NCBI GenBank assembly: GCA_012517355.1
Contig: JAAYVD010000168.1
Location: forward strand, 62,001 to 126,000
Direction of reading: 5' to 3'
Source of the DNA: Candidatus Rifleibacteriota bacterium
GTDB lineage: Bacteria > Muiribacteriota > Ozemobacteria > Ozemobacterales > Ozemobacteraceae
Length of the DNA: 64,000 nucleotides
Positions 7,082 through 41,021 of the stretch are shown one piece after another. The notes beneath the pieces are model-generated. The model was not told the origin of the DNA. It saw nothing but the letters and a program-made list of their open reading frames with translations, and did no database searches. The position numbers and the translations under genes are program-made. The number at the start of each line of letters is the position of its first letter. Position 1 is the stretch's first letter.

Positions 7082-7168
7082 CGGCCCCTTTGCAGGGCGC
7101 GAAACTGGCGTTTCGCGCCGCCATCCGTGGCGGCAAAGGGGCACTTCCGACATCGTGTCGGTCGGATC
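7082..7168 (-). repeat. Dispersed palindromic element, copy A (intergenic, minus orientation)
   Basis: Read on the minus strand the element has, in order: GACCGACACGATGTCGG, a CCCCTTTG arm, the hairpin CCGCCACGGATGGCGG, the hairpin GCGAAACGCCAGTTTCGCG, and a GCAAAGGGGCCG arm that pairs with the first CCCCTTTG. It is nearly identical to the copies at 29902 and 32150 and lies between two convergent genes. Confidence 0.8.
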
Positions 7169-7386
7169 CGCCGGGGCCGGACGGTCCGGCGATCCCTTCT
7201 CCCGCCGTCCTGCTCCGTGTTCATCCGGTTCCATCGACTTCCCACCAGGCCGAGGGCCGGAGCGGCGGAGGGAGCCCCGCCGACCCGAACCCCTTCCGCC
7301 CGGGGCCTTCCGCCCGGGGCCTTCCGGCCACCGGCAGGGAGGGGAAGGAGGCGTCGACGAATCGGGTCCGGGTCGGGCCTTTCCGG

Positions 7387-8247
7387 TCAAATCGCCTTCC
7401 AGAGCGCCTTCCAGGCCGGGGCCATGGTGGTGGCCCCGGGCCAGTGACCGGCGGTCACCACCCCGATCATGAAACAACTGAGCAGGGCCAACAGGAACCC
7501 GCCGATCGTCTGCTCCGCCAGGACCGTCTTCCAGTCGGCGTCGGACCAGTCGGCCATGCCCGCCGTCTCGCCCGCGCCCACGGCGATCTGCAGGATGGTC
7601 TCGGACAGGATGTCGGGAGCGTTGTAGACGAAGAAGATGAAGACGCTGAAGATCACCCCGATGAACAGCCCGATGACCGCCAGCACGATGGCATCGGCGT
7701 CCAGGCAGCCAAGTCCCGAAGCCGCATCGGCCGCCACCGAACCGCCGTCGGTCGCCGCCTGGCCGGCCTCGGCCACCGCGCGACCGGCATCCGCCACAGC
7801 GCGCGTGGTCTCCACGAGGTCGCCCGCCGACCGGGCCGCATCGGCCAGATGGGCCGATGCCTGCACCGCGTCACCGCCCCGCGCGGTGAGGTCCGAGACG
7901 AGATTGCACACATCCAGGCCGGTATCGAGGGAGTCGAAGGGGGCGCTCACGACCCGGTCGGCCCCGTTCCGCAAGAAGCGGAACAGGAAGGGATAGGCGT
8001 ACAGCCAGCCCTTCACGATGGGGAAGAAGGCCAGGTAGGTCAGGAAGGCGCATACCGAGTAGCGGGCCACCAGGTCGGTCAGCCCCCAGGCATACAGGCT
8101 GGCATTGATGGCCAGCCAGGCCACCCCGGTCAACGCCAGGATGATGAGCATGAACCACCGCAACGGCAGCCGCTCCTTCACCATCTCCAGCAACTGTTTC
8201 CGGCCCATCCCACCCGGCGTTCCCCGGACCATCGCTTCCGTTCCCAT
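7387..8247 (-). CDS. Four-helix membrane protein with Ala-rich central domain, unknown function
   Basis: 286 residues, started by an ATG with GGGGGAGGGG upstream. Hydrophobic helices lie at about 30-54, 64-86, 204-228 and 254-274. Between helices 2 and 3 is a long Ala/Asp-rich helical stretch (about 110-195) with a heptad-like pattern, possibly a coiled coil. I do not recognise the family. The gene stands alone, convergent with the vWA gene, with an element copy in the gap. The overall layout resembles the truncated protein at the window start. The region 7169-7386 holds no gene I can support. Confidence 0.65.
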   Translation of the reverse strand: MGTEAMVRGTPGGMGRKQLLEMVKERLPLRWFMLIILALTGVAWLAINASLYAWGLTDLVARYSVCAFLTYLAFFPIVKGWLYAYPFLFRFLRNGADRVVSAPFDSLDTGLDVCNLVSDLTARGGDAVQASAHLADAARSAGDLVETTRAVADAGRAVAEAGQAATDGGSVAADAASGLGCLDADAIVLAVIGLFIGVIFSVFIFFVYNAPDILSETILQIAVGAGETAGMADWSDADWKTVLAEQTIGGFLLALLSCFMIGVVTAGHWPGATTMAPAWKALWKAI

Positions 8248-8624
8248 CTCCGCGCCCCTCCCCCATTCGTTTCCGATGCCGCGATCGGCGTGCCACCCCC
8301 ATCAAAGCATCTCCCGTGCCAGGATGGCACTCTTGTGTTCAAGCTTGTTTCCGAACATCTCCGGGCTGTGATGGGCCGGTTTGGCGCACCGCCACTGCGT
8401 CATCCCTGTCGCCACCCCCTCGCAGATTCAGGCTGGGCGCCCCGCCACGGATCTCCCCCGTGCCTTCCGGATGGCCGATGGAATTCAGGTCCGGCACCGA
8501 AATTCCTCATTGCCCTGGGGCGGTCAACTTAGGTAGACTATTGGGCAAGCAGACAAATTGCAGGTCTCGAGGTGGGTGGTCCCTGAGGTTCAGGAAGCCT
8601 CAAACCGGCTGAGGAGGGAAGTTC
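8248..8624. other. Divergent intergenic region with a long leader
   Basis: These 377 bases hold no gene I can support. The right part carries the promoter of the FecR operon and a leader of about 80 bases before its ATG. The base composition is less GC-rich than in the flanking genes. No riboswitch fold is recognised. Confidence 0.4.
8510..8539 (+). promoter_or_regulatory. Promoter of the FecR/pseudopilin operon
   Basis: TTGCCC (8510-8515), an 18-base spacer and TAGACT (8534-8539). The ribosome site GAGGAGGGA lies just before the ATG at 8625. Confidence 0.5.
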
Positions 8625-9290
8625 ATGAGATATTCACACCGGGTTTGGCCGTGGGTTGCGGTGATGGTGGCGATCCTGGCGTTTCCCTTCCTGCACGGAT
8701 GTGAAGACGGACGAAGAGCACCCGCCACCCTGAAACTGGCCAAAGGCGAAGGGAACCGGATCCCTGTCGGCCAGGGGGAACCCGCCTTCCGGTTCGGCAA
8801 CGACCTCGAACTCCCCACCGAGCTGAAACGCGACAGCCGCGCCTTTTCCTTCCTCCCTGACAAGGATTTCCCCTTCTTCCACGAGGATTTCATCCAGAAC
8901 GTGTCGGGGAAAGAGGCCATCCTCAACGAAGTGGCCAACCAGTCACGGTTCACGCTCAAGCCCGACACCGCCATCCAGATCCATCCCAATGCCCTGACCC
9001 TGATCAAAGGGTCGGCCCGGTTCGAGTTCAAGAAGGTCAACGGCGAATACCGGATCAAGGTCCCCTTCGCCACTCTCGGCATCCGGGGAACCACCCTCCA
9101 GGTCACCGTCAACCCCGACCAGAGCAGTCGGACCGACCTTCTGGAGGGTCAGATCTCGGTCGAGGCCGGCGGCACCACCCTGCCCCTGAAAGCCGGAGAA
9201 CGCCTCGAGATCGACGCCAAGGGCGTCGTCGGCCGCCCAGCCCCTCTTCCCGGGTTGAACCCCGACACCTACCACCCGCCCGCCCACTGA
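8625..9290 (+). CDS. FecR-domain lipoprotein
   Basis: 221 residues. A short positive N-terminus and hydrophobic helix end in the lipobox-like FLHGC (Cys at about 26), so it is probably a lipoprotein. The middle and C-terminal half hold a FecR-type beta fold: a segment SRFTLKPDTAIQIHP, then KVPFATLGIRGTTLQV, then LLEGQISV, the usual order in FecR-like proteins that are not sigma regulators. Family knowledge: beyond iron signalling, FecR domains occur widely in surface and cell-envelope proteins. It heads an operon with three prepilin-like genes, spaced by 6 bases, which suggests an envelope assembly role; that is inference. Confidence 0.8.
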   Translation: MRYSHRVWPWVAVMVAILAFPFLHGCEDGRRAPATLKLAKGEGNRIPVGQGEPAFRFGNDLELPTELKRDSRAFSFLPDKDFPFFHEDFIQNVSGKEAILNEVANQSRFTLKPDTAIQIHPNALTLIKGSARFEFKKVNGEYRIKVPFATLGIRGTTLQVTVNPDQSSRTDLLEGQISVEAGGTTLPLKAGERLEIDAKGVVGRPAPLPGLNPDTYHPPAH

Positions 9291-9296
9291 CCGCGC

Positions 9297-9773
9297 ATGA
9301 ACCACAGGCGACGGTCCTTCCCTCCGGCCGGGTTCACCTTTGTCGAGATCGTGCTCGCCATCGGCATCCTGGCCATCGGTTTCCTGCCGATGATGAGCCT
9401 GTTCGGCAGTCAGGCGGTCACCGTCCGCGATCTGAGCGATCATGCCATCGCCATGAACCTCGCCGAACACCAGCTCCACAAGTACATCCAGATCATCAAC
9501 AACCTCGAGGCTTCAGACACCGTCTACATCCAGGACGAAGTCCTGACCCCCGAGATCAAGGGCCTCTGCCCCGAACAGGTCAAGTGGCTCACCGGGTTCA
9601 AGATCGCCGGCACCGTGCGGCAGGCCGTCTCGGCGCCCGACCGCGGGTATGAGGTGAACATCGTGGCCACCTGGGGCAACCGCAAGCGCTTCGACCTGTT
9701 CACCATCGTTCCGCAGCGGGAAACCCTGATCGTGGCCACGGGTTCCTGGGAGCAGGGCACCAATGGCAGCTGA
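9297..9773 (+). CDS. Prepilin-like protein (GspI/PilV-like minor pseudopilin)
   Basis: 158 residues. A short basic leader ends in a prepilin peptidase site, G followed by FTFVEIVLAIG, with Glu at position +5 after cleavage, then a hydrophobic helix. The C-terminal part is soluble and mixed alpha/beta. There is no clear ribosome site, and the gene begins 6 bases after the FecR stop, so translation is probably coupled. The position, first of three prepilin-like genes, fits the I-J-K order of minor pseudopilins in type II secretion and pilus systems. No ATPase, inner-membrane platform or secretin gene is in the window. Confidence 0.8.
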   Translation: MNHRRRSFPPAGFTFVEIVLAIGILAIGFLPMMSLFGSQAVTVRDLSDHAIAMNLAEHQLHKYIQIINNLEASDTVYIQDEVLTPEIKGLCPEQVKWLTGFKIAGTVRQAVSAPDRGYEVNIVATWGNRKRFDLFTIVPQRETLIVATGSWEQGTNGS

Positions 9774-10242
9774 CCACGGGCGCCGGCAGGGGTTCACCCT
9801 CGTCGAGGTGCTGGTCGCCGCCGGCCTGCTGGCGCTGCTGCTGGCCTTCTGCACGCGGGGCATCCAGTACGCCGCCCGCTCCCTGGGCCTCCAGGAACGC
9901 CTGGAATGGGCCACCCGCCTGCGCAACGCGTCCTACGTGCTCAGCCGGGATCTCAGCCTGGCCAGCGAGGTCATCCACCCGGCCGGGGTGACCCAGGAGT
10001 TCTCGCCCCACCTCATTTTCAAGAACCAGCGCAACGAGATCGTCGGGATCTTCCTCAGCCCCGACGGGTTGATGCACTACAATTACAACACCGACGAGGC
10101 GCGCAACCTCTTCCCCTTCGCGGCGAGCTTCTCCTGCCGGCTGTCCCAGGACAACCTGCTCGAGTTCGTCCTGACCGTCCGGAAGGACAAGGTCGAATTC
10201 TCGGTCAGGAACCAGCTGTCGATGTATGAGACCCTCCCATGA
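9763..10242 (+). CDS. Prepilin-like protein (GspJ-like minor pseudopilin)
   Basis: 159 residues, overlapping the previous gene by 11 bases, with GGAGCAGGG upstream of the ATG. The N-terminal motif GFTLVEVLVAAGLLALLL is a textbook type IV prepilin signal (cleavage after Gly, Glu at +5). Length and order fit GspJ, but the soluble part is too diverged for a firm name. It probably acts at the tip of a pseudopilus in the periplasm after processing by a prepilin peptidase encoded elsewhere. Confidence 0.8.
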   Translation: MAADHGRRQGFTLVEVLVAAGLLALLLAFCTRGIQYAARSLGLQERLEWATRLRNASYVLSRDLSLASEVIHPAGVTQEFSPHLIFKNQRNEIVGIFLSPDGLMHYNYNTDEARNLFPFAASFSCRLSQDNLLEFVLTVRKDKVEFSVRNQLSMYETLP

Positions 10243-11834: not shown

Positions 11835-12149
11835 CCGCCGCTGTTTGTCTGACCGCCGGCGCCTTCCCCTCCATCGACGCGCCGATTCACCCTCCTCCCC
11901 CAACCCCTTCCCACAGCCCTTCCCACGGCCCTTCCCACGCCCGCTGCCCGCCACGACACGGGGTGCCATCCGGGTCACCGGAAGTCCGGTCCGGCCGGAC
12001 GTTTTCCGGCCCCCCTGGACCCGACGCCCGCCAGAAGCCGGCAGCATGACGGTCTGCCATCCGATGCGCGGAAGGGTCCCCAGCCTGTCTCCCCTGGTCG
12101 CCCCGCCGTCTTCCGCCGGGCGCAGGTGTCCTGGTCTTCGGCACCCCCA

Positions 12150-12185
12150 CAGGCCCGGCCTGCCCCCGCACGCAGGCCGGGCCTG
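12150..12185. terminator. Perfect 13-bp hairpin
   Basis: CAGGCCCGGCCTG and CAGGCCGGGCCTG around a 10-base loop. It may terminate both convergent operons. There is no T-tract. Confidence 0.5.
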
Positions 12186-12197
12186 CACGCAAACGAA

Positions 12198-12230
12198 CCG
12201 CCGGTCTCCGTCAGGCCTGGAGACCGGCGG
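12198..12230 (-). terminator. Perfect 12-bp hairpin after the VIT/vWA gene
   Basis: CCGCCGGTCTCC and GGAGACCGGCGG around a 9-base loop, 57 bases past the stop codon of the leftward gene. It is followed on that strand by GGTTCGTTTG. Confidence 0.55.
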
Positions 12231-12287
12231 GGATGGTGCTCGCGGCCTCCCCCGCGAAGATGCCGCGAAGGAGACCGGGACCAAACG

Positions 12288-17919: not shown

Positions 17920-19938
17920 ATGAACCGACCGACCGTTTGTCGGAAGTGCCCCCTTGCCGACCCCGGACACCGCGCGACACGACCGTTTCGCGCCAGGCCC
18001 GGGGATCCTCTTCCAGTCCCGCTCGCCATCCTGTTCCTGGCCTGGCTGGGAGCCTTCCTGCCCGGGGGGCCGGCCGGCGCCGGCCCGGCCGAAGACCGGC
18101 TGATCGCGGCCTGCCGCGAACTGCTGGCCCCCCTCCTGGAGGACCGCGAACGGTTCACCCTCGACCTCGTCGCCAGTTCCGACCCCGACACCCCCCGGGG
18201 GGACCTCGGATCGGAGACGGCCAGCGGGACCGGTGAGGCCCCTGACCGTCAACCCGCCCGCCAACCCGGCCGGCTCCACCGCCTGACCATCCACCGGTCG
18301 GGGGCGGAAGCGTGGGCCGTGCGGCTCAGCAGCCCTTGGCGCGAAGTCTTCCTCTCCCGGCAGCCGGAGCTCACCTCGCTGGTCCTGCCCAAGGCCGGAG
18401 TGGCCTTCGTCGGCGAGGGGCCGCTGGCCACGGCCACCGACCACCTGGCGGCGACCGGCCTGCTGGGCCGGGTCGTCACGCCCGAAACCAGCCTGGCCGG
18501 ATTCCTGGCCTTCCTGGGCCCCGCCACCCTGGAGACCGGCCTGCGGCAGGTGCTGCTGCCTGGATTGACGCCGCTGCCCGCCGGCGACTGCCCCGTTTCC
18601 GCCCATGGCTGGAGGCTCCCGGGGGGAGGCTCCCTCCTGGTGCCGGCCACCGACACCCCCTGGGTGACCCTGACGCTGGCCTCCTCCACCCGCGGCCTGG
18701 CCGGTCTCACCTCGTTCACGTTGTCGGCACGGCCCCCGGATGCCCCGCCGCCCGCCCCGCCGGTGGTCCCGGTGCGCACCGAGAAGGTGTCCCGGGCCGA
18801 CCTCGAGAGGATGCTGTTCCGGGGCCTGTTCCGGGCTCTTTCCGTCAAGTTCCCGGGGGCGCCCGTGCAGGCCCGTCCCGAGCCCCGGAAGGTTCCCCAT
18901 GGCGACCTGCGGCACCACGACGGGCAGATCCTGGTGCGGTTGGCCGGCAGCCCCGTCCAGATCGGCACCGCCCACGGCCAGCTGCTGGGGCCCGAAATCC
19001 GGCGAACGGTCGATTCGACCCTCCACCTGGTCGGCCTGGTCAGCACCATCGAGCGGGGCAAGTGGTTCCCCGGCGAACTGGAGGAAGCCTGGAGCCGGCT
19101 CAGCCCCCACCTGCCGCCGCACCACCTCGAGGAACTCCAGGCCATCGCCTCCGCCTGCCCCGGCCTTGGCTGGCGGGACCTGCGCCTGTCGAGCATCTTC
19201 CCCGAGTATTTCCACTGCTCCGGGTTCGCCCTGTTCGGGCGGGCCACCGCCGACGGGGCCCTGTACCACGGGCGGGTCCTCGATTACATGACCGAGATCG
19301 GGTTGCAACAGGTGGCCGTGGCCTTCGTGGTCAAGCCGGACGGGGCCCGCGGCTTCCTCAACGCCGGGTATGCCGGCCTGCAGGGTTCGGTCAGCGGCAT
19401 GAACGAGGCCGGGATCTCGCTGGGGGAGATGGGCGGGGGCGGCCGCTACCAGTGGGACGGCGTGCCGATGACCACCCTGATGCGGCGGGCGCTGGAGGAG
19501 TGCGGCACCCTCGAGGAGGTCAGACGCCTGTGGGCCGACAGCCCGCGCACCTGCGAGTATTACTACGTCTTCGCCGACGGGAAGATCCCCGACGCGATGG
19601 CGGTGCGGGCCACGCCGACCGAGATCGAGTTCCTGCGCCCCGGGCACGCCCATCCCCAGCTGGGGGAGGGCATCGCCGACGCGGTGGTGCTGTCGGCCGG
19701 CAGCCGGCTGAAGGAACTGCGCCACCGGGTGACGGCCGGCCACGGCACCTTCACCGCCAGTTCCGCCCTGCGGCTGATGGACCGCCCTGTCGCCATGCGC
19801 AGCAACCTGCACAACTGTCTGTTCGTGCCGGCCCGCGGAGAAGCCTGGATCGCCAACGCCGACGACCGGCGGCCGGCGGCCGAATGCCCCTACGTGCGGT
19901 ACGACTTGCGGGAGCTGCTGCGAGACCTGCCCCGGTAA
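17920..19938 (+). CDS. Secreted C45-type (acyl-CoA:6-APA acyltransferase-like) amidohydrolase
   Basis: 672 residues. The first 30 come from a copy of the dispersed palindromic element. A signal-like hydrophobic segment (about 31-50) follows, so the extension precedes the export signal. After a region without clear homology (about 55-310) comes a C45/AAT domain: GTAHGQLLGPEIR at about 348, the nucleophile-like Cys433 in FHCSGFALFG, and AGYAGLQGSVSGMNEAGISL. Family knowledge: Ntn-type members cleave themselves before the Cys and hydrolyse amide bonds of small molecules. The large N-terminal part is unusual, since the family is often about 350-400 residues. The substrate is unknown. Confidence 0.8.
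   Translation: MNRPTVCRKCPLADPGHRATRPFRARPGDPLPVPLAILFLAWLGAFLPGGPAGAGPAEDRLIAACRELLAPLLEDRERFTLDLVASSDPDTPRGDLGSETASGTGEAPDRQPARQPGRLHRLTIHRSGAEAWAVRLSSPWREVFLSRQPELTSLVLPKAGVAFVGEGPLATATDHLAATGLLGRVVTPETSLAGFLAFLGPATLETGLRQVLLPGLTPLPAGDCPVSAHGWRLPGGGSLLVPATDTPWVTLTLASSTRGLAGLTSFTLSARPPDAPPPAPPVVPVRTEKVSRADLERMLFRGLFRALSVKFPGAPVQARPEPRKVPHGDLRHHDGQILVRLAGSPVQIGTAHGQLLGPEIRRTVDSTLHLVGLVSTIERGKWFPGELEEAWSRLSPHLPPHHLEELQAIASACPGLGWRDLRLSSIFPEYFHCSGFALFGRATADGALYHGRVLDYMTEIGLQQVAVAFVVKPDGARGFLNAGYAGLQGSVSGMNEAGISLGEMGGGGRYQWDGVPMTTLMRRALEECGTLEEVRRLWADSPRTCEYYYVFADGKIPDAMAVRATPTEIEFLRPGHAHPQLGEGIADAVVLSAGSRLKELRHRVTAGHGTFTASSALRLMDRPVAMRSNLHNCLFVPARGEAWIANADDRRPAAECPYVRYDLRELLRDLPR
17926..18005 (+). 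repeat. Dispersed palindromic element, copy F (inside CDS start)
   Basis: Diverged copy: GACCGTTTGTCGGAAG, then CCCCCTTGCC, then CGTTTCGCGCC, ending at CCCGGGGATCC. It begins 6 bases after the ATG and is read through in frame; the frame differs from that used in nadB. Confidence 0.65.
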
Positions 19939-21749: not shown

Positions 21750-22106
21750 ATGGGTGAGTTTGCCGTCGTCACCGAGATCCGCGACAACCCGCGGGTGGTC
21801 TGCGTCCGGACCACCGGCTACATCGACGACGCGGCCGGAGAGAAGATCAAGAAGGTCATCCAGTCGTTGATGGTGAAGGGCGAGAAGAACTACCTGTTCA
21901 ACTTCGCCAGCTCCCCCGTCATCAACAGCACCGGCATCTCCTGCCTCCTCGAGATCTGCGAGGAGATCGGGTTCAGCCTGCAGGGGAAGGTGGTCTTCTG
22001 CAGCCTTCCCAAGGCCATCGCCGAGGTGTTCAAGATGATGGGCATCACGACGGTCTACACGGTCTGCGACTCCGAGGAATCGGCGGTTCCCGAGTTCTCC
22101 CGGTGA
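21750..22106 (+). CDS. STAS-domain protein (anti-sigma factor antagonist type)
   Basis: 118 residues, a single STAS domain. SPVINSTGISCLLEIC is the conserved loop and helix, with Ser-Thr-Gly at the phospho-acceptor site as in RsbV-type proteins. It is a paralogue of the STAS protein at 5436 and shares its leaderless-type promoter arrangement. The likely regulators are the SpoIIE-type phosphatases at 14931 and 61611. Neighbouring HEAT-repeat genes on both sides may encode partners. A hairpin terminator follows at once, so the gene is probably monocistronic. Confidence 0.88.
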   Translation: MGEFAVVTEIRDNPRVVCVRTTGYIDDAAGEKIKKVIQSLMVKGEKNYLFNFASSPVINSTGISCLLEICEEIGFSLQGKVVFCSLPKAIAEVFKMMGITTVYTVCDSEESAVPEFSR

Positions 22107-22145: not shown

Positions 22146-22232
22146 CGACCGACCCGCAGCCGGAAGGACCCCCTTGCCGCCGGAGAGGGCACCGCGGAAC
22201 GCGGGTTGCGCGGGCCGCAAGAGGGCCGACCG
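22146..22232 (+). repeat. Dispersed palindromic element, copy H (intergenic)
   Basis: Diverged plus-strand copy: GACCGACCCGCAGCCGGAAG, CCCCCTTGCCGCC, then GCGGAACGCGGGTTGCGCGG and AAGAGGGCCGACCG. It lies between the STAS terminator and the HEAT-repeat gene. Confidence 0.6.
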
Positions 22233-22307: not shown

Positions 22308-24239
22308 GTGAACAACCTGCTGGCCCTGCTGCTCGAGGATCTCGATTCCGAGAACCGGTCCGTCCGGTGCGATGCCGTGCGGCAACTGGCCGAGCAGGAT
22401 CTCGACCCGGCCACGCTGGCACGCATGAACGCGTTGGCGGCAGACCCCCAGCAGGATCCCGAAATCCAGTTCCTGGCCCGCCAGGCGGTGCTGAACACCG
22501 AACGGCGGCGCCGGGCGCCCGCCCAGGCCTTTCCCGCCTTCACCGGCCTGCTCGACCTGGAGAGGAAGCTGGGGGCGCTGAACGACCGGGAGTTCCAGCA
22601 GGCGGTGGGCAACTGTCCCGCCGAATCGGTGCCGGCCCTGATGGAGGTCCTGCGACGGCTGGTGCCGCAGCCGGACCTGCCCCCCGACCGGGCGGCGGTG
22701 GTCCTGGCCGCCTTCCGGCGGTGGGGGAAGCCCGAGGACGGCGACCTCCTGCTGCCCTTCGTGGGCGCCAAGGACCCGGTCCAGGTCATCGAGGCCATCG
22801 GGGCCCTCGAACGGCTGGCCCCCCGCAAGCTGTTCGAGCGGATCGGGGTGCCCCTGGCCTCGCCCTACCCGCACGTGCAGAACCGGGCCCTGCGCACCAT
22901 CCTGCGATTCCACTTCATGAAGGGGGTGGACTACCTGCGGCGGATGTTCGCCTCGGAACACGCCTCGGTGCGCGCCGCCGCGGTGATGCAATGCATGAGC
23001 ATCCCGTTCGGGAAGGTGCAGGAACTGGTCTTCAACGCCCTGGCCGTCGAGGAGGACCCCCGGGTCCTGGCCAGGGCCGCCTACCTGCTGTATCTCAACC
23101 CCAGCGAGAACACCGTCTACTGGCTGATGGACATCGCCGGCACGGCCTCGGCCGCGAAGGGGAAATGGTGCCAGGACTGCATCACCGCCGTCCTCGACTC
23201 GATCCGCCTGTCGGGCATCATGGAGGGGTCGGTCGAGGAGTTCACCGCGCGCATCCGCAAGCAGCTCGAGAGCCGGCAGCGCAACTCCCTGCTGGGCACC
23301 TTCTTCGAGGAGCTGCAGAACAAGGATCCGATGCGACGTTACGAGGCCATCGAAGCCCTGCGGGAACACCACGCCCTGCCCGAGGTGCGCGAAAAGTTCC
23401 AGGCGATGTACCTGGCCGAAACCGACAAGCGCGTGAAGGGTCTGCTGACGACGATCTTCGCCGACAACCCCGACCGGGAGCGCCTGCAGGCCGAGATGGC
23501 CCCCGAGAAGTTCCAGAAGCTGCTGCGCGACGAGCAACTGGCCCTGCTGGGGCAGGTCAAGTCCTGCGAGGAGTTCTCCTTCGTCAAGCCGAGCCTGCAA
23601 CGGTTCTCGCGCATGCGCCTCGACCCCATGGTGGTGGCGGAGGCGGTGCGGCTGCTGGGCCGGTTCGGAGACCCCAAGGATGACCAGCCCTTCCTGATGA
23701 TGGCCCTCAAGAGCGGGGACGGCCTGGTCATGGCCCGGGCCATCGAGGGCCTCGGCCACATGGCCCCCGAGATCCTGATGAAGGAGCTTCCCCGGCTGAT
23801 CCGCGAGCACGACCCGACGGTGCGGGGCGCCGCCCTGCGCACCTTCTTCCGGCTGGACAAGGCGCAGGCCATGAAGGCCCTGCAGGACATGCTGCTGTCG
23901 GAAAGCTCGACGGTCAAGGAACAGTCCCTGGTCTGCCTGGCCCAGCTCAGCTATTCGGCCACGCGCCCGCTGCTGCTGCGGTTCCTCAAGGAGGACCCCA
24001 ACATGGCCCTGGTCCGGAAGGCCGGCATGATCCTGCGCAACAACCCCGACCCCGACGCGGTCAGGAGCATCTACCAGACGATGCGCCTGGTCAGCGGCCC
24101 GCGCAAGACCACCCTGCAGGAGATCCTGCAGGACTGCATCAAGGGCTGTATCGAAGCCGGGCTGGTGAAGGGGACGGTGGCCCAGCACCTGGAAACCCTG
24201 CAACTCGACGCCGCCGCCGGGGACCATCCCACGATCTGA
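22308..24239 (+). CDS. Large HEAT-repeat protein
   Basis: 643 residues from a GTG with GGGAG 5 bases upstream. The whole protein reads as tandem helical pairs of HEAT/PBS-lyase type with conserved Asp/Pro/Arg positions (for example VMARAIEGLGHMAPEILMKE). There is no signal peptide or membrane helix, so it is cytoplasmic. HEAT solenoids bind other proteins, and in several phyla they sit beside STAS and phosphatase genes. It is convergent with the J-domain gene, 20 bases away. No catalytic motif is seen, so the partner is unknown. Confidence 0.75.
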   Translation: MNNLLALLLEDLDSENRSVRCDAVRQLAEQDLDPATLARMNALAADPQQDPEIQFLARQAVLNTERRRRAPAQAFPAFTGLLDLERKLGALNDREFQQAVGNCPAESVPALMEVLRRLVPQPDLPPDRAAVVLAAFRRWGKPEDGDLLLPFVGAKDPVQVIEAIGALERLAPRKLFERIGVPLASPYPHVQNRALRTILRFHFMKGVDYLRRMFASEHASVRAAAVMQCMSIPFGKVQELVFNALAVEEDPRVLARAAYLLYLNPSENTVYWLMDIAGTASAAKGKWCQDCITAVLDSIRLSGIMEGSVEEFTARIRKQLESRQRNSLLGTFFEELQNKDPMRRYEAIEALREHHALPEVREKFQAMYLAETDKRVKGLLTTIFADNPDRERLQAEMAPEKFQKLLRDEQLALLGQVKSCEEFSFVKPSLQRFSRMRLDPMVVAEAVRLLGRFGDPKDDQPFLMMALKSGDGLVMARAIEGLGHMAPEILMKELPRLIREHDPTVRGAALRTFFRLDKAQAMKALQDMLLSESSTVKEQSLVCLAQLSYSATRPLLLRFLKEDPNMALVRKAGMILRNNPDPDAVRSIYQTMRLVSGPRKTTLQEILQDCIKGCIEAGLVKGTVAQHLETLQLDAAAGDHPTI

Positions 24240-28640: not shown

Positions 28641-29816
28641 GTGAAATACTTCTTCACCTCTGAATCCGTCACCGAGGGCCACCCCGACAAGGTGGCCGAC
28701 CAGATCTCCGACGCCGTTCTCGACGCCATCTACGCGCAGGACAAGTACGCGCGCGTGGCCTGCGAAACCGCCGTCACCACCGGCCTCGCCTTCGTGATGG
28801 GCGAGATCACCACCAATTGCTACGTCGACATCCAGGAGATCGTCCGCAAGACGATCGTCGATATCGGGTATGTCAACTCCGAGTGGGGCATCGACGGCCG
28901 CGCCTGCGGCGTCATGGTGGCCCTCGACAAGCAGTCCCCCGACATCGCCCAGGGCGTCAACAAGGCCGCCGACGCCGACGACAAGGCCGGCGACAAGGAA
29001 CTGAACACCGGCGCCGGCGACCAGGGCATGATGGTCGGCTACGCCTGCCGCGAGACCCCCGACCTGATGCCGGCCCCCATCTACTACGCCCACGGCATCT
29101 GCCGCAAGCTGGCCGAACTGCGCAAGAAGAACGTCCTTCCCTACCTCCGGCCCGACGGCAAGGCCCAGGTCACCGTCGAATACGACAACGGCAAGGTGGC
29201 CCGCATCGACGCGGTGGTCATCTCCTCGCAGCACGCCCCGGAAGTCAGTCACGCCCAGATCACCGAAGACCTGATCACCAAGTGCGCCAAGGCGGTCATC
29301 CCCGCCGAGCTGCTCGACAAGAAGACCAAGTTCTTCGTCAACCCCACCGGCCGGTTCGTGGTCGGCGGTCCGCAGGGCGATTCCGGCCTGACCGGGCGCA
29401 AGATCATCGTCGACACCTACGGCGGCATGGCCTCCCACGGCGGCGGCGCCTTCTCCGGGAAGGACCCCACCAAGGTCGACCGCTCGGGCGCCTACATGGG
29501 CCGCTACATCGCCAAGAACCTCGTGGCCGCCGGCATCGCCGACCGGCTCGAGATCCAGATCGCCTACGCGATCGGCGTGGCCCGCCCGCTGTCGGTGCAC
29601 GTGAACACCTTCGGCACCACCAAGCTGGCCCCCGAGAAGATCGAAAAGCTGATCCTCGACACCTTCGACCTGCGGCCGGGCGCCATCATCAAGCAGCTCG
29701 ACCTGCGCCGGCCGATCTACAAGCAGACCGCGGCCTACGGGCATTTCGGCCGGTCCGACCTCGACCTGCCCTGGGAACGCACCGACAAGGTCGACGTCCT
29801 CAAGAAAGCCCTCTGA
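28641..29816 (+). CDS. metK: S-adenosylmethionine synthetase
   Basis: 391 residues, cytoplasmic. It makes S-adenosylmethionine from methionine and ATP. The start is GTG at 28641: GGAGG lies 8 bases upstream and the protein then opens [16 protein letters not shown] as in other MetK proteins. The ATG at 28626 would put the ribosome site inside the gene. Family motifs are intact: [13 protein letters not shown] and [16 protein letters not shown]. Length is normal for the family. It has its own promoter and a strong terminator, so it is probably transcribed alone. Two enzymes that could recycle SAM by-products lie at 43336 and 45272. Confidence 0.97.
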
Positions 29817-29901: not shown

Positions 29902-29988
29902 GACCGACACGAGGTCGGCCATACCCCTTGGCCGCCACCGATGGCAGCGCGAAGCACGGGTTTCGCGCATCGCAAAGGGGCCGGCCGC
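29902..29988 (+). repeat. Dispersed palindromic element, copy E (at the start of a CDS)
   Basis: Plus-strand copy: GACCGACACGAGGTCGG, ACCCCTTGG, CCGCCACCGATGGCAG, GCGAAGCACGGGTTTCGCG and CAAAGGGGCCG. It overlaps the 5' end of the polysaccharide deacetylase gene and would be read in the same frame as the copy in nadB. Confidence 0.75.
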
Positions 29989-30795
29989 TCCGTGGCGGGG
30001 CGGCTGACGCCGCGGGTGCTGCTGGTGCTGCTGCTGGGCGTGCTCGCCTGGGGCGGCGGGGCCGGGCCGGCGGCGGCGGCCGGACGGTTGGCGGTGCTGG
30101 TCTACCATCACCTGGAAGACCCGACCCGTTCCGACGTTTCCTGCACCCCGACCCAGTTCGACGCGCAGATGGCCGCCCTGCAGGCGGAAGGGTTCACCCC
30201 CCTGAACCTGGCGCAGATCCGGCTGTTTTTGGCCGGCGGCCTGCCGTCCGTCGAGAAGCCGGTGGCGATCACCTTCGACGACGGGTATGAGAGCCTCTAC
30301 CACCACGCCCTGCCCATCGCCCGGGCCCGCAAGATCCCCATGATCGCCTTCGTGGTGACCTCGCGGCTGGGCCGGCAGCCGCAGTTCACCCGCTACCTGT
30401 CGCCCGCGCAGATCCGGGAGATGGCCGCCACCGGCTGGTTCGAGTTCGGCTCGCACACCCACGACCTGCACACCGACCTGCTCCGCATCTGGGAATCCTT
30501 CCGGTCGACCCCCAACCCCCTGCTGCCGGTGGTAAGCGCCGACCTGGCCCAATCCCAGGGGCGGCTGCGCGAGATCCTCGGGCACCCCGCGACGGCCCTG
30601 GCCTGGCCCTACGGCAAGTACACCCCCGAGACCCGGAAAGCGGCACGCCACCAGGGGTTTTTGCTGCACTTCACCAGCCTCTCGGGCGCCAACGAACCCG
30701 GCGGCGACCCCTACGGCATCAAGCGGCTGCCCGTCTCCTCGCGCGACACCCCCGACTCGGTGGTGCGCAAGGCCGGCGGGTCCTGGCTCTGGTAG
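29941..30795 (+). CDS. Polysaccharide deacetylase (NodB homology domain), exported
   Basis: 284 residues from the ATG at 29941, which lies within an element copy. A GTG at 29992, directly before a good signal peptide (RVLLVLLLGVLAW, then an Ala-rich cleavage region), is an equally possible start. An open frame continues upstream into the metK terminator, but a start there is unlikely. The NodB domain is complete: YHHLE at the N-terminus, the metal-binding Asp pair in TFDDGYE (Asp113-Asp114), and SHTHDLH with the His-x3-His-type ligands. Family knowledge: these PgaB/IcaB-like enzymes remove acetyl groups from surface polysaccharides such as poly-N-acetylglucosamine. It is 7 bases upstream of nadB, so co-transcription is likely despite unrelated roles. 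Confidence 0.82.
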   Translation: MAARSTGFAHRKGAGRSVAGRLTPRVLLVLLLGVLAWGGGAGPAAAAGRLAVLVYHHLEDPTRSDVSCTPTQFDAQMAALQAEGFTPLNLAQIRLFLAGGLPSVEKPVAITFDDGYESLYHHALPIARARKIPMIAFVVTSRLGRQPQFTRYLSPAQIREMAATGWFEFGSHTHDLHTDLLRIWESFRSTPNPLLPVVSADLAQSQGRLREILGHPATALAWPYGKYTPETRKAARHQGFLLHFTSLSGANEPGGDPYGIKRLPVSSRDTPDSVVRKAGGSWLW

Positions 30796-30802: not shown

Positions 30803-32665
30803 ATGGAGGGGACCCCCGCGGCCTTCCTGGTCATCGGGTCTGGGGTGGCGGGGTTGTTCGCGGCCCTGGAGCTGGCCGCCGCCGGTCAACGGGTCCTGGT
30901 CCTGACCCGGCGCGCGATCGACGAGGGGAACTCGGCCTACGCCCAGGGGGGCATCGCCACCGTCTGGGATCCCGCCGATACGGCGGCCGGGCACGCCCGG
31001 GACACGCTGGTGGCCGGGGCGGGTTTGTGCGATCCGGCGGCCGTCGATCTCCTGGTCAGGGAAGGACCCGACGGCGTCCGGGCCATGATCGGGCTGGGCG
31101 CCCGGTTCGACCGCGATGATGACGGGAACCTTCTGCTGACCCGCGAAGGCGGCCACGGCTGCCGGCGGATTCTGCACGCCAACGGGGATGCCACCGGCCG
31201 CGAACTGGAGCGGGCCCTGGTGGCGCGCGTCAGGCAGGAGCCCCGGATCGAGGTGCGGGAAGGCGTCACGGCGTTCGACCTGCTGCGCCACGAGGGCCGG
31301 GTGACCGGCGCCCGGGCCCTGGACGGCGACGGGCGGCCCCTGGCCTTCCCCGCCGACCGCATCCTGTTGGCCAGCGGCGGCCTGGCCGCCCTGTTCCGGG
31401 ACACCACCAATCCCGCCGTGACCGTCGGCGACGGCATCGTCATGGCCTGGGCGGCGGGGGCGGCGGTGGCCGACCTCGAGTTCATCCAGTTCCATCCGAC
31501 GGGGCTGGTGATCCCCGGCCAGCCGCGGCACCTGCTCACCGAGGCCCTGCGCGGGGAAGGGGCCCACCTGCTGAGCCGGTCCGGCGACCGGTTCATGCCC
31601 CGCCACCACCCCCTGGCCGAGCTGGCCCCCCGCGACATCGTGGCCCGCGCCGAGTTGGCCGAGATGCAGCGGACGGGGGACCCCTTCGTGCTCCTCGACG
31701 CCCGGCACCTGGGGGCCTCGTTTCTGGCCGGCCGGTTCCCCGGCCTGGAGGCGATGCTGGGCCGGTTCGGCCTGTCGCTGGCCAGGGATCCCATCCCGGT
31801 GGCCCCGGCCGCGCACTACACGATCGGCGGGGTGCTCACCGACCTGGCGGGCCGGACCACCGTCCCCGGCCTGTATGCCGCGGGAGAGGTCGCCTGCACC
31901 GGCGTGCACGGCGCCAACCGCCTGGCGTCCAACAGCCTGCTCGAATGCCTGGTGTTCGGGCGGCGGGCCGCCCATGCCATGCTGGAGGATTCCATCCGTT
32001 CGCAGAAAGGCACAGCAAGCGCCTCAGCAACCGGATCCCCCCTGCCGGAAACCGGGGCCGGTCTCACCGCCCCACCAGCCGGCGATCCCGACCGACACGA
32101 GGTCGGAAGTGGGCCGCGGGCGCCAGGATGGCGCATCCTCCGCGATCCCGACCGGCACGACGTCGGAAGGGCCCCTTTGCCGCCACGGATGGCGGTGCGA
32201 AACGCCCGTTTCGCGCATCGCCAAGGGGCCGACCGGCAGGAGGTCGCAGATCCTCCCTTGCCACCAGGGATGAAACCCCTGAACCTCAGCATCACTGACG
32301 GCCAGGGGACGGACGGGCCTGGGTTCACCTGGATGCCGGCACGGTTCCCCCCGGGGGATCCCGGGGAGTTTCTCGACCGCCTGCTGGGGGTGTTCCGGAC
32401 CGGACCCGGCCTCGACGAGGCCATGGGCAAACTGGAACCGTCGCTGACGACGGTGACCGTTCCCCTGGGCGAGGCCACCCCCGACCGGGTGGCCCGCCGC
32501 CAGCGGACCGTCGCCGCCGCGCTGCTGGCCCGCTTCGCCCACGCCCGCCGGGAAAGCCGCGGGGCCCATTTCCGGGAAGACTTCCCCGCCCCCGACCCGG
32601 CCTGGCAATTCCGGCAGGTGCTGACCGGCACCACGCTGTCGCGCTGGCCCGGCTCCGTGGAGTGA
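30803..32665 (+). CDS. nadB: L-aspartate oxidase with an in-frame repeat insertion
   Basis: 620 residues. The enzyme oxidises L-aspartate to iminoaspartate, the first step of NAD synthesis. The FAD-binding motif GSGVAGLFAALELA starts at about residue 12; SAYAQGGIA, GGHGCRRILHANGDATGREL, PTGL and the active-site region HYTIGGVLTDLAGRTTVPGLYAAGE are conserved. Relatives have about 500-540 residues; the excess is a segment at about 408-510, between the FAD/capping part and the helical C-terminal domain, much of which is encoded by three partial units of the dispersed palindromic element (427-491). The insertion keeps the frame and sits where a surface loop is expected, so the enzyme may still work. 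nadA and nadC are not in the window. Confidence 0.92.
   Translation: MEGTPAAFLVIGSGVAGLFAALELAAAGQRVLVLTRRAIDEGNSAYAQGGIATVWDPADTAAGHARDTLVAGAGLCDPAAVDLLVREGPDGVRAMIGLGARFDRDDDGNLLLTREGGHGCRRILHANGDATGRELERALVARVRQEPRIEVREGVTAFDLLRHEGRVTGARALDGDGRPLAFPADRILLASGGLAALFRDTTNPAVTVGDGIVMAWAAGAAVADLEFIQFHPTGLVIPGQPRHLLTEALRGEGAHLLSRSGDRFMPRHHPLAELAPRDIVARAELAEMQRTGDPFVLLDARHLGASFLAGRFPGLEAMLGRFGLSLARDPIPVAPAAHYTIGGVLTDLAGRTTVPGLYAAGEVACTGVHGANRLASNSLLECLVFGRRAAHAMLEDSIRSQKGTASASATGSPLPETGAGLTAPPAGDPDRHEVGSGPRAPGWRILRDPDRHDVGRAPLPPRMAVRNARFAHRQGADRQEVADPPLPPGMKPLNLSITDGQGTDGPGFTWMPARFPPGDPGEFLDRLLGVFRTGPGLDEAMGKLEPSLTTVTVPLGEATPDRVARRQRTVAAALLARFAHARRESRGAHFREDFPAPDPAWQFRQVLTGTTLSRWPGSVE
32084..32276 (+). 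repeat. Dispersed palindromic element, copies D1-D3 inside nadB
   Basis: Three tandem plus-strand units. D1 (about 32084-32143) starts GATCCCGACCGACACGAGG and is truncated or diverged. D2 (about 32144-32236) is full: GACCGGCACGACGTCGG, CCCCTTTGCC, CCGCCACGGATGGCGG, GCGAAACGCCCGTTTCGCG and CCAAGGGGCCG. D3 (about 32231-32276) restarts GACCGGCAGGAGGTCGC, then CCCTTGCCACCAGGGATG, and stops. All are read in frame. Confidence 0.85.
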
Positions 32666-36587: not shown

Positions 36588-38106
36588 TGGACGGGGCGGG
36601 CATCCCGGGCCGCGTCCCGCGCCGGGCAGCCCCCACCGCCCACCGCCTGGATCGGCGACCGGCCGCGTGAACCGCAGAGGCTGGCGGGGCCTGGCCGGGC
36701 TCGCCCTGGCGGGTCTGGCCGCGCTGGCGGGAAGCCTCGGCGGCTGCACCGGGCGGCAGGGGGCCGGCCAGGCGACGACCGGCCAGGCGACGGCCGAGCT
36801 TCCCTACCCCTACCGGGAATCGACGCAGCGGAGCGTGGTCTCCTTCAGCGGCCAGCTGGCGGCGGCCAGTTCCACCAACCTGTCGTTGCGACAGGGGGCG
36901 TGGGGGTTGATCTCCTGGATGAAGGAAGAGGGCCAGCCCATCGCCTCGGGGGAACTGGCCGCCGTCATCGACATGTCGCAGAGCGAGGACCAGCTCATCT
37001 TCAGCGTCAGCTCCCTGCGGGCGGCCCGGCATTCCCTGCGCGAACACGCCCTGGACACCCCGCGGACGCTGGCCGAGAGCCAGTCAGAGGTCGAAAGCAA
37101 GGCCCGCCTGCTGGCCCAGCGCCGCCAGGAACTGGCGTGGCTGCGGGCCGGCCCCACCCCCGACCAGGTCTGGAAGGCGGTCACGGCGGTGGACACCGCG
37201 GCCCAGGCCGGGTCCTTCTCGCGCCAGGTGCTGGAAGGGCAGCGGCGGGTCACGGAACGCGGGTTCGACAGCCCCTTCACCCTTCGCAGCCGCGAGCTCG
37301 ACGCCCGCGCCCGCGAGGTCGAGTGGTCCTACAACCGCCAGCTGCTGGACCGGCTGCTGGCCGGCCCCAAGCCCGAGGAACTGGCCAAGGGCGCTTTCCA
37401 GGTGGAAGTGGCGGCGGGCGAGGCCGCCCTGGCCCGCAACCAGCTGGAGTCGGCCTCGGCCTCCCGGCAGGTGGACGCCAAGGGTCTCGAGTTCGAGATC
37501 GAGGTGCGCGGGGCGGAACTTCGCGAGACCAACGACCGGCTCGACCAGCGCCGCCTGCTCGCCCCGACCGCCGGCCTGGTGATCCACCCGATGATGTGGG
37601 GCGAGAAGTTCGCGCGCGGCCGGGAGGTCTGGGAGGACGTCCCGTTCATGAAGATCGTGGCCACCTCGGGGTTCGAGGTCGACTGTTCGGTCGACGAGCC
37701 CGTTTCGGCGCTGCTCAAGACCGGCGCCACCGCCACAGTGCGGCTGGACGCCTTTCCCGACCGGGCCCTGCCCGGGCGGCTGACCTTCATCGGGAAGTCG
37801 CCCCGGCAGCAGATCTTCCGGCGGCGCAGCCAGTTCAAGAAATTCCCGGTCACCGTGGCCGTCGATGTCGGGTCGCTGCCCGTACGGCTCGGACTGAAGG
37901 CGCGGATCACCGTGGTGGCGACCGAGGCGACAGGCGTGTTCCTGCCCCGCGACGTGGTGGGGGGAACCGAAGCCTCGCCGACCGTGCGGATTCCTGGCCT
38001 CCTCGGGGGCGCCTCCCCCCGGCCGGTGCAGGTGGTGCCCTTCGACAGCGACCTGGTGCGGTGGCTCGATCCCCCCGCCAGCGAAGGGACGGTGCTGTAT
38101 CCATGA
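36568..38106 (+). CDS. HlyD-family periplasmic adaptor lipoprotein
   Basis: 512 residues from an ATG overlapping the TolC-like gene. A GTG at 36667 just before the signal peptide (RRGWRGLAGLALAGLAALAG) is a reasonable alternative start. The lipobox GSLGGC predicts an inner-membrane lipoprotein. A lipoyl/barrel part (VSFSGQLAAASSTNLSLRQG) is interrupted by a long alpha-helical hairpin (about 130-330), then QRRLLAPTAGLVIHP and a beta-barrel domain close the fold. This is the normal layout of a membrane fusion protein linking permease and outer-membrane channel. Its stop overlaps the start of the next gene (ATGA). Confidence 0.85.
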   Translation: MTPRTPDGRGGHPGPRPAPGSPHRPPPGSATGRVNRRGWRGLAGLALAGLAALAGSLGGCTGRQGAGQATTGQATAELPYPYRESTQRSVVSFSGQLAAASSTNLSLRQGAWGLISWMKEEGQPIASGELAAVIDMSQSEDQLIFSVSSLRAARHSLREHALDTPRTLAESQSEVESKARLLAQRRQELAWLRAGPTPDQVWKAVTAVDTAAQAGSFSRQVLEGQRRVTERGFDSPFTLRSRELDARAREVEWSYNRQLLDRLLAGPKPEELAKGAFQVEVAAGEAALARNQLESASASRQVDAKGLEFEIEVRGAELRETNDRLDQRRLLAPTAGLVIHPMMWGEKFARGREVWEDVPFMKIVATSGFEVDCSVDEPVSALLKTGATATVRLDAFPDRALPGRLTFIGKSPRQQIFRRRSQFKKFPVTVAVDVGSLPVRLGLKARITVVATEATGVFLPRDVVGGTEASPTVRIPGLLGGASPRPVQVVPFDSDLVRWLDPPASEGTVLYP

Positions 38107-41021
38107 ATTCCCGACGCCCCCGCGCCGCCGCCGTCGCCCACGAATCCGGCCGGTCACCGGAAACGCCCTCCCCGCAGGGGACCCCGGAAACGGAGCCCTG
38201 GCCAATCCCGGCCACAACGCCTCAGAACCGATTTCCAGGCCCGAAGGCCATTGACGCCCCCTTGGCGGGGGGCGAGACGGACGTTTCGCGGTCCCCTCCG
38301 TGGCGAACAACGGGCCCTTCCGACGGCGGACCCGGGTCCCGCTCACAGATCCAGGTCCGACCCGGAAGGCGACCAACGGAGACCCCGGAAGGAAGGCAGC
38401 CGGGGGAAGCCCGCCGAGGTTTGGCCCTTCCCCTCCTTCTGCTCTTCCTGCTGGCCGGGCTCCTGGCCTCCTGCGGGTGCGGCCCCGCCGGGCCGGAAGA
38501 GGCCGCGGCTCCCGGGCGGCCGGGCGGGGCGGCCGGCGACGGCCGGTGGCCGATCCTGCAGCGGGGCGTGGTGGTGGCCCTGCGCAAGGTCTCGGTCGAT
38601 GCCACCCGCTCCACCCAGGTCCGCAGCCTGCTGCCGGATGGGGCGCTGGTGCAGGCCGGCCAGGTGGTCTGCCAGCTCGTGATGGCCGACCGCGAGGACG
38701 AACTCGCCAAGAAGCGGGCGGATCGGGAGAGCAAAGAGATCCAGTGGCGGCGGGTCCGTGACGGCCAGGGGTTCGAACGCGAGGTGGCCGCGGTGAAACG
38801 CGAACTGGCCGAGGTCGAGCTGGCCAGGACGGCCGAGGAGCTGGGGAAGGCCACCGACCAGCGGGAGTGGCAGCAGATCCTCGAGGAGGAAACCGCGCAA
38901 CGGGTGCGCCGGCAGGAGATCGGCCTGGTGCGCCGCAAGCTGGACGCCCTGCGCGACCTCGAGCGACGCGGGTTCGGCTCGCCGCAGGAACGGCTGGCCG
39001 CCGAGGAGCTGCTCGGGCGGCTGACGCTGGAGGCTTCGCAGGCCGCGCGGCTGGTTCCCTGGCTGGAGAAGACCCCCGACCGGCAGGCAGTCCTGACCGC
39101 GACCCTGGCCTGGGAAGGGGCCTCCCTGGCCCTCGACCTGGCTCGCCTGGTCGAGCGCGGCCAGGCGGGCATCCAGGAGGTGAAACTGGTCGCCGCCCGG
39201 GCGGAGCTGGACGACGCGGCCAGCGCGGTGGCCCGCCTGGAGGCCGAGATCGCCTCCGGCACGCTGGTGGCCAGCATCGCGGGCATGGTGGTGCGCGAGA
39301 ACACCTGGGTGGGGTCGGGCTGGGAAAAGGTCTCGGAAGGCGACCGGGTGTTCACCGGCCGGCCGATCCTGAACATCCTCGACCTCGGCACCCTCGGCGT
39401 GGAGTTCCCGCTCGAGCAGCGGTTTGCGGGCCTGGTGGCCGGCGGCTGCCCGGTCACCTTCCGCCCCGATGCCTTTCCCGGGCGGCTGTGGACCGGGGTG
39501 GTCGCGACCGTGCCCGCCGTGGTCCTGGAGACCCAGTTCCGCGACCCCGAAGGGGAACGGGCCCTGACGGTGCAGGTCGCCTTCCGGGAGGCGACCCCGA
39601 CCCTGCCCCTCGGGTTCACCGGCACCGTCGAGATCTTCCCGCCCGGCACCGACCTGGCCGCGGCGACCGCCGCCCGCCCGGGCTCCCGCCGGACCTCCCT
39701 GGCCGCCGGCCCGCGGCGCCGCGACCTGACCCTGCCCGGCGAGGTCAAGGCCCGCCAGCGCGGGCTCGTCGCCGCCCCCTTCGCCGCCCGGCTGTCCTAC
39801 CTGCAGGAGGACGGGGTCAGCGTGAAGAAGGGCGAGGTGGTGGCCCGGCTCGACACGGCCGAGATCGAGAAGGGCCTGGGGGAACAGCGGATCCAGGTGC
39901 AGAACAAGACCGAGCAGCTTGAGCTGCAGCGCCAGAAGAACCGGGTCGACCTGTCGCGCTGGGAGGGGCTGGTGGCCACGCGGCGCAGCGCCCTGCGGGT
40001 GGCCGAGCTCGAACACGAGATGCTGCTGACCCGCCGCGACGAGGCGGAGATTTTGAACCTGCAGAAGAACCGCGACCTGATCGCCGCCCGCCGCACCCTC
40101 AACGAGGAGGAGACGAAGCACGTCGGCGAGCTGCGAGCCCGCGGCCTGAAGTCCGAACTGGAGCTCGACGAGAGCCGCCTGGCCGGGGCCCGCCTGGAGC
40201 GCGAGCGCGAGATCAACGCCCACAAGCTCGACCTCGAGGTGTCGGGCCCGACCCGCCGCCAGGTCCGGCTGTCGGAACTGGCCCGGCACCAGGCCGCCCT
40301 GGAGCTCCGGCAGGCGGAGCGGGAGGCGGCCCAGGCCTCCTTCACCGCCCGCCTGGACGAGGAGACGCTGGTCGCCGAGATCCGCAAGCTGACCCTGGAG
40401 GTCGCCGAGAAGGAGCAGCGGCTCCGGGAGTCGGCCATTCCCGCCCCCCAGGACGGGGTGGTGATCCTGCCCGAAGTCTGGAAGGAAGGCGAGATGGGAA
40501 AGATGAAGCTGGGCGACCAGGTCAGCCGCCAGATCCCGTTCATGCACATCGCCGACCTCGACCAGCTCGAGATCAACGTGGAGGTGCCCGAGACGGAGGT
40601 CGGCTTCCTGGCCCCCGGCCGGCCCGTCCGCATCACCGCCAAGTCGGCGCCGGGGCGGGTCTTCCCCGGCTGGATCGCCGACGTCGGCACGGTCGCCGAG
40701 AACGACCTGCTGGAGCGGCAGAACGCCCTGGTCGACGTTTTCCTCGCCCTGACCAACCCGGCCTCCGGGGTCACCAAGGTCGACGAGGCCTTCCGGCCCG
40801 GCGCCTCCTGCGAGATCGCCATGCCCCTGTACGATCTGCCCGCCGCGGTGGCCGTCCCCTTCGCCGCCGTCTGGCCGACGCCCGACGGCCCCGCCGTGTT
40901 CGACGGCGACGGCCGGCCGGCCGCCCTGCCCCTCGCCTTCGCCGACGGCCTGGCCGGCTACGTCCTGGCCGACCCGGCCTGGGCGGGCCGCGAGATCCTG
41001 CTGCCGGAGGCCGTCCGATGA
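38103..41021 (+). CDS. Double HlyD-type adaptor (two adaptor modules in one chain)
   Basis: 972 residues. The start is set by overlap with the previous stop. The first 95 residues are polar and include an antisense copy of the dispersed element at about 51-79. A lipoprotein signal then follows (ALPLLLLFLLAGLLASC, Cys at about 121). Module 1 (about 145-515) has a biotinyl-lipoyl half (LPDGALVQAGQVVCQL), a helical hairpin and a closing barrel. Module 2 (about 530-960) repeats this: GLVAAPFAARLSYLQEDGVS, a long coiled coil, AIPAPQDGVVILPEVW and a barrel. A fusion of two adaptors is unusual; separate adaptors normally assemble as six subunits. With the preceding gene the operon carries three adaptor modules. 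Confidence 0.85.
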   Translation: MNSRRPRAAAVAHESGRSPETPSPQGTPETEPWPIPATTPQNRFPGPKAIDAPLAGGETDVSRSPPWRTTGPSDGGPGSRSQIQVRPGRRPTETPEGRQPGEARRGLALPLLLLFLLAGLLASCGCGPAGPEEAAAPGRPGGAAGDGRWPILQRGVVVALRKVSVDATRSTQVRSLLPDGALVQAGQVVCQLVMADREDELAKKRADRESKEIQWRRVRDGQGFEREVAAVKRELAEVELARTAEELGKATDQREWQQILEEETAQRVRRQEIGLVRRKLDALRDLERRGFGSPQERLAAEELLGRLTLEASQAARLVPWLEKTPDRQAVLTATLAWEGASLALDLARLVERGQAGIQEVKLVAARAELDDAASAVARLEAEIASGTLVASIAGMVVRENTWVGSGWEKVSEGDRVFTGRPILNILDLGTLGVEFPLEQRFAGLVAGGCPVTFRPDAFPGRLWTGVVATVPAVVLETQFRDPEGERALTVQVAFREATPTLPLGFTGTVEIFPPGTDLAAATAARPGSRRTSLAAGPRRRDLTLPGEVKARQRGLVAAPFAARLSYLQEDGVSVKKGEVVARLDTAEIEKGLGEQRIQVQNKTEQLELQRQKNRVDLSRWEGLVATRRSALRVAELEHEMLLTRRDEAEILNLQKNRDLIAARRTLNEEETKHVGELRARGLKSELELDESRLAGARLEREREINAHKLDLEVSGPTRRQVRLSELARHQAALELRQAEREAAQASFTARLDEETLVAEIRKLTLEVAEKEQRLRESAIPAPQDGVVILPEVWKEGEMGKMKLGDQVSRQIPFMHIADLDQLEINVEVPETEVGFLAPGRPVRITAKSAPGRVFPGWIADVGTVAENDLLERQNALVDVFLALTNPASGVTKVDEAFRPGASCEIAMPLYDLPAAVAVPFAAVWPTPDGPAVFDGDGRPAALPLAFADGLAGYVLADPAWAGREILLPEAVR
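38253..38339 (-). repeat. Dispersed palindromic element, copy G (inside adaptor gene, antisense)
   Basis: Read on the minus strand: GTCCGCCGTCGGAAGGG, CCCGTTGTTCGCCACGGA, CCGCGAAACGTCCGTCTCG and GCCAAGGGGGCG. It lies in the N-terminal extension, upstream of the lipoprotein signal, and is translated from its opposite strand. Confidence 0.7.

Follow-up and report, generated by a model that had tools for sequence, protein, structure and literature searches.

A family of short folded repeats with unit lengths of 60, 81 and 84 bp is dispersed through the genome of a Candidatus Rifleibacteriota bacterium and through related genomes, and quite probably consists of non-autonomous mobile hairpin elements which insert next to CC dinucleotides and are kept within genes as stop-poor multiples of three. 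This interpretation is built on features read directly from the genomes: copy number, spread, compensated structure between species, unit boundaries, array period, lineage-specific presence and in-frame placement. The repeats were noticed in the window, a stretch of 64,000 nucleotides, whose genome (G000) is a fragmented, Ozemobacter-like Riflebacteria MAG of 7.1 Mb in 184 contigs; the nearest named relatives of a window protein are Candidatus Ozemobacter sibiricus and an Ozemobacteraceae bacterium (76-80% identity). Protein-invading palindromic repeats are known mainly from Rickettsia and Wolbachia; the best descriptions come from alphaproteobacteria that are intracellular and reduced, and in these weak selection could account for them. 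The palindromic elements of these two genera (Ogata et al., 2000, 2002, 2005, reviewed in PMC2229807) are represented by the Rickettsia elements (RPE), hairpins of 105-146 bp with terminal inverted repeats that lie in frame in 19 Rickettsia genes, and the one in gmk is translated in an active enzyme (PMC2229807). ERIC and Correia/NEMIS elements have likewise been reported to contribute open frames that are joined to genes in frame (PMC2229807), and some REPs, which are 20-40 bp long with GTAG or CGTC tags, lie inside genes (PMC3733652). No literature on repeats of such kind in Riflebacteria was found.

Each unit carries a 17-nt head hairpin, CCNNC-ACGAN-GNNGG, followed by the conserved linker GAAGTG and then by a foldback arm. 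The consensus of type A, GACCGACACGAGGTCGGAAGTGCCCCTTTGCCGCCACGGATGGCGGCGCGAAACGCCCGTTTCGCGCATCGCAAAGGGGCC, is 81 bp long and has an 84-bp form with three additional bases 3′ of position 20; it folds into the head hairpin and a three-way junction, with z scores of -4.8 as RNA and -6.5 as DNA against shuffles. Type B, of 60 bp, has the head hairpin and linker in common with type A and differs in the foldback arm, which is a single stem-loop. No Rfam model matched the window at its gathering score. The three unit lengths are multiples of three (20, 27 and 28 codons for 60, 81 and 84 bp), and the consensus sequences of type A, of its 84-bp form and of most type B groups contain no stop in any of the six frames; the type B consensus of one genome of another genus, G010, has four open frames. 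With stems kept and random bases at the same GC, six-frame openness would arise by chance at about 0.12 for type A and, depending on GC, at 0.17-0.38 for type B. The stop-free frames thus make insertions in genes tolerable and do not by themselves prove selection for openness, which was rejected as an explanation because stems so rich in GC could well be open in all six frames by chance.

The original prediction had described a single palindrome of about 85 bp at six loci of the window. All six carry the element, and the parts then named are parts of the consensus; the single palindrome gives way to a head hairpin plus foldback arm that comes in two sizes and is often tandem. The units of the window, with the one gene that they certainly occupy, are as follows.

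7083..7163, minus strand: near-consensus type A unit (nhmmer 77.9 bits; fold z -5.4), intergenic by gene calls
17927..18007, plus strand: decayed type A unit (nhmmer 35.1 bits), in frame, directly 3′ of the ATG at 17920
22147..22227, plus strand: decayed type A unit (nhmmer 36.1 bits), in the leader of the HEAT-repeat gene (22308-24239), which follows 21750-22106
29902..29982, plus strand: type A unit (nhmmer 63.2 bits), between metK (28641-29816) and a polysaccharide deacetylase gene
30803..32665, plus strand: nadB, L-aspartate oxidase (Pfam FAD_binding_2 at 9-379, Succ_DH_flav_C at 525-599)
32090..32149, plus strand: type B unit of 60 bp, in frame, inside nadB
32150..32230, plus strand: full type A unit (nhmmer 78.8 bits), in frame in nadB, tandem to the B unit; peptide DRHDVGRAPLPPRMAVRNARFAHRQGA
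32231..32311, plus strand: decayed type A unit, third in nadB (nhmmer 19.6 bits, E 6e-4), in frame
38256..38336, minus strand: decayed type A unit (nhmmer 38.1 bits), intergenic, between 36667-38106 (plus) and 38421-41021 (plus)

The cluster in nadB had been taken for three partial units at 32084-32276; three units are indeed present, but they are a 60-bp B, a full A and a decayed A that extends to 32311. Four loci had been placed within coding sequences or at their starts. This holds for nadB and probably for 17927, but not for 22147 and 29902, which are upstream of the real starts, since the orthologues of the HEAT-repeat gene in G001 and G002 start at the codon called here (22308) with no unit upstream, and homology of the polysaccharide deacetylase starts at residue ~65, 3′ of the repeat, with the true start near 30016. 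The unit at 17927, in the gene of an AAT-domain protein, has GGGAGGAACGACATG on its 5′ side and a good ribosome site and ATG ahead, and may be a repeat-derived N-terminal extension of that protein's signal peptide. The unit at 7083..7163 lies between a VWA-domain gene (5912-7057, plus) and 7387-8208 (minus). One of the six loci is therefore firmly intragenic, one is probably an N-terminal extension, and four are in leaders or between genes. The proposed folding stands for the consensus, well above shuffles; at 22147, 32231 and 38256, however, the copies are older and their fold is no longer clearly better than chance.

A BLAST search of the whole 7.1 Mb of G000 returned 546 first-look candidates, 40 of which, when scored, already gave 71 significant matches, and a type A profile search (nhmmer) of 0.82 Mb found 140 copies in 100 arrays. 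Extrapolation from the window plus four whole contigs, together 0.77 Mb with ~125 copies, puts the genome total at an estimated ~1,100 type A copies, the sampled contigs being large ones and copies at contig ends possibly under-counted or misassembled. The wider search, which also found the 60-bp type in other genera, bears out the predicted recurrence of the repeat, and its genome-wide copy number refutes the idea that the units are ordinary conserved protein sequence. Together with low-complexity coincidence in a GC-rich genome, that idea is exceedingly improbable: long open frames are common at 69% GC, and the copies at 22147 and 29902 fall only in spurious frame extensions, but the copies are many, reach 98% identity to the consensus, lie on both strands and in several frames, and are absent from orthologues. 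Seventy of the type A arrays are single units and the other 30 have two to four, with a head-to-tail spacing of 81 bp in 21 cases, 84 bp in nine and 82 bp in four; in G002 and G004 the type B arrays are spaced by 60 bp. Head-hairpin-only micro-repeats of ~27-30 bp were observed in frame in a SpoIIE/HAMP gene (G000:C22:129355-129513, L081), adjoining a full antisense copy.

The unit boundaries are CC|GACC...GGGGCC[GC][TA]CC. CC is found upstream of the units in 93-96%, and GGGGCC is followed by [GC][TA]CC, where conservation ends. The left end, CC|GACC, also conforms to this downstream pattern, so that a unit inserted at the left end of a copy already in place would produce exact head-to-tail arrays. 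CC at both unit ends is compatible with a 2-bp target duplication or with ends borne by the element. The left end, CCGACCGACACG, and the right end, GCAAAGGGGCC, are not mutual inverted repeats, and the terminal inverted repeats that characterize MITEs are accordingly lacking. Under the mobile-element reading, units would be copied into new sites adjoining a CC dinucleotide, presumably as a folded single strand mobilised by a trans-acting enzyme. Presence at orthologous sites is lineage-specific: the metK-deacetylase spacer (syntenic loci L146 and L147), the HEAT-gene leader (G001 and G002) and the nadB linker hold the element in G000 but are empty sites in relatives. The leader of a GTPase gene holds a type A copy in G002 and just a short spacer in G001. 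Upstream of an HD-domain gene (L192/L193), G002 has a full type B unit and G001 keeps just both B ends with the centre deleted, which is evidently a deletion after an older insertion; G001 is otherwise without the element.

The copies lie mostly between genes. By a home-made coding model trained on G000, a fragmented metagenome assembly, 113 of the 140 copies and 82 of the 100 arrays are intergenic in DNA that is 84% coding (G000, 0.82 Mb). This distribution, together with the strong folding and a loop and linker conserved across genera, would suit an intergenic RNA or DNA element selected by the host, such as a terminator, mRNA stabiliser or regulator, with the gene copies being accidental. 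However, arrays occupy 54 of 221 co-directional, 17 of 73 divergent and 11 of 55 convergent gaps, in proportion to gap numbers in every context, and their orientation relative to flanking genes is mixed (31 same vs 23 opposite), which speaks against a function as terminator or in the messenger and favours the view that insertions into genes are removed or avoided; a regulatory role was rejected on the same lack of preference for gap type and orientation. Moreover, resident copies freely accumulate broken pairs as they decay, orthologous sites are empty in relatives and the consensus unit has no following T run, and selection by the host is quite improbable as the origin of the family. Most surviving insertions of the mobile element would then be intergenic. 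The 64% of arrays that lie on the locally C-rich strand do not form a significant excess per contig, and a strand or replication bias was rejected, as the CC target alone could yield an excess on the C-rich strand.

Insertions within conserved genes are fewer. In NadB, the B, A and decayed A units together form residues ~430-503; the FAD domain (9-379) precedes them and the C-terminal helical domain (525-599) follows, and a solved L-aspartate oxidase aligns to residues 8-390 and 566-596, on both sides of the insert. The original prediction had called for comparison of orthologues with and without the insert, and the relatives indeed lack it, having ~20 residues at that position. In a DegT/DnrJ aminotransferase of G000, an antisense copy lies inside the domain at residues 169-195; a solved homologue aligns to 4-176 and 215-428, with two residues only in between. 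The surface loop concerned (G000:C19:65420-65560, L087, L088) is long in each of the three species of this genus, with unrelated sequences, and is apparently a site tolerant of insertions. HemC of G004 has its C-terminal domain split by two tandem type B units (40 codons): the E. coli protein aligns up to query residue 312 (its 251) and resumes at query 358 (its 256), so that 45 residues stand where E. coli HemC has 4, after E. coli residue 251. Further in-frame type B units were found in a saccharopine dehydrogenase-type gene (G004), a PPDK-like gene (G010) and a polysaccharide pyruvyl transferase gene (G002), and other intragenic cases, by position, are a cyclase (between domains), a SpoIIE/HAMP protein, the tail of an ABC ATPase and the tail of a sugar amidotransferase-like protein. 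Genes of G004 were judged by open frames and Pfam, the coding model trained on G000 being unsuited to the lower-GC contigs of G004. A large open frame with three copies (C22:81212-86059) was dropped as doubtful coding, its coding score being weak for its length.

Intragenic copies use several plus-strand frames and antisense, as had been predicted for reading through without stops, and in-frame invasion of conserved genes is genuine and recurs across genera. A new protein-invading family resembling that of Rickettsia had been proposed; the large family and its in-frame copies are there, but the description as inserted into genes was overstated for repeats that are mostly intergenic. In-frame survival in genes follows from unit lengths that are multiples of three and almost stop-free, and insertions into surface loops, linkers and tails would be read through in frame and presumably translated as new protein segments.

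Type A was detected in G000 and, at low copy number, in its congener G002, and neither in G001 nor in the other genomes searched. Type B is carried by G000, by G002 (41 matches), by G004 (9, another genus) and by G010 (4, a third genus); beyond these, among 40 genomes of the phylum, the one match is a marginal B-like unit of a further genus (L250, G015:C277:9706-9789, GACCAACAGGAGGTTGGGAGTGC..GCGCCAGGATGG), possibly a trace of earlier spread of the family. The element family is so far restricted to one family among these 40 genomes, the Ozemobacteraceae. Across the carriers the GAAGTG linker and the ACGAN/AGGAN loop stay constant, and the head stems change as pairs: CCGAC/GTCGG in G000, CCCGC/GCGGG in G004, CCCCC/GGGGG in G010 and part of G002, and CCAGC/GCTGG once in G004. 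Over G000, G002, G004 and G010 the type B head stem is 95% paired vs 75% in shuffles, with 35 double changes in the head against a maximum of 22 in 1,000 shuffles and nine in the outer arm against a shuffle maximum of five, the shuffles being uncorrected for relatedness. Four different complementary head stems would be hard to explain without compensatory change. Among the type A copies within G000, most of the pairing decays, and the double changes cluster at two subfamily-marking pairs of the outer arm; this scarcity of covariation implies that structural selection, if any, acts on moving copies and not on resident ones. Compensation between species with decay of residents is the pattern expected if moving copies need the fold, and the stem compensation between genera points to a fold that would be recognised by some enzyme.

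No transposase linked to the element was found, RAYT and IS110 both fitting poorly. A single intact RAYT (Y1 transposase) gene is present in each of two carriers, with 61% identity between them:

G000:C109:4387-4713 (L125): RAYT
G002:C123:17209-17532 (L127): RAYT

The element-free G001 has none, and since high-copy intergenic hairpin elements are typical of REPs, a REP/RAYT system in which this one Y1 transposase mobilises the element could be envisaged. It is nevertheless unlikely: in both species the gene is flanked by its own motif, similar to TATCATGTCCCCGGAACTC, with no element copy within 6 kb (the nearest at 6.6 kb), type B carriers G004 and G010 gave no Y1 match in their incomplete assemblies, the GTAG/CGTC tag is missing and the units are of 60-84 bp, not 20-40. 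RAYT was rejected as mobiliser on account of the different flanking motif. Derivation from an IS110-type (bridge RNA) element was likewise rejected, no IS110 transposase (PF02371) match being found in G000, G002, G004 or G010. Reverse transcriptases were rejected because they occur in carriers and non-carriers alike; those of ~460 aa, the size of a group II intron protein, were seen at G000:C69:50123-50743, G002:C284 and G010:C387, and in non-carriers too. The viral contigs and plasmids searched for the element gave no matches. Tentatively, the repeats could form an undescribed class of mobile elements that fold as single strands, with an own recombinase recognising the head hairpin and GAAGTG and with lengths and frames selected to pass through genes, although this is on the doubtful side. 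If it were true, essential enzymes throughout a bacterial family would be receiving new segments from the element.

Like RPE, the repeats of Ozemobacteraceae are dispersed hairpins, both intergenic and intragenic, that are tolerated in frame in conserved enzymes. They differ in host (Riflebacteria, not Rickettsia), in unit length (60/81/84 bp vs 105-146 bp), in having a distinct head hairpin where RPE has terminal inverted repeats, in their exact head-to-tail arrays and extrapolated roughly 1,100 copies, and in occurring in at least three genera with compensated stems, RPE being set apart by description. As REP/REPIN sequences (PMC3733652, PMC3116915, PMC8266576), they are short folded DNA in high copy, mostly extragenic and possibly moved single-stranded, but lack the GTAG/CGTC tag, have units of 60-84 bp (CC|GACCG...GGGGCC) and show no association with the resident RAYT gene. 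They share a non-autonomous nature with ERIC and Correia/NEMIS, whose terminal inverted repeats and TA target duplications are not seen here. The host, of another phylum, has a large genome of high GC, the architecture of the repeats is different, and units lie within enzymes such as NadB and HemC; the origin of protein segments from mobile hairpins thereby becomes testable outside Rickettsia.

Two type B units of G010 (L230:314-372 and L231:270-329) are nested in other palindromes, ATTCCCGC...GCGGGAAT, of the dRS3/CGTC kind, an indication that palindromic targets may be preferred.
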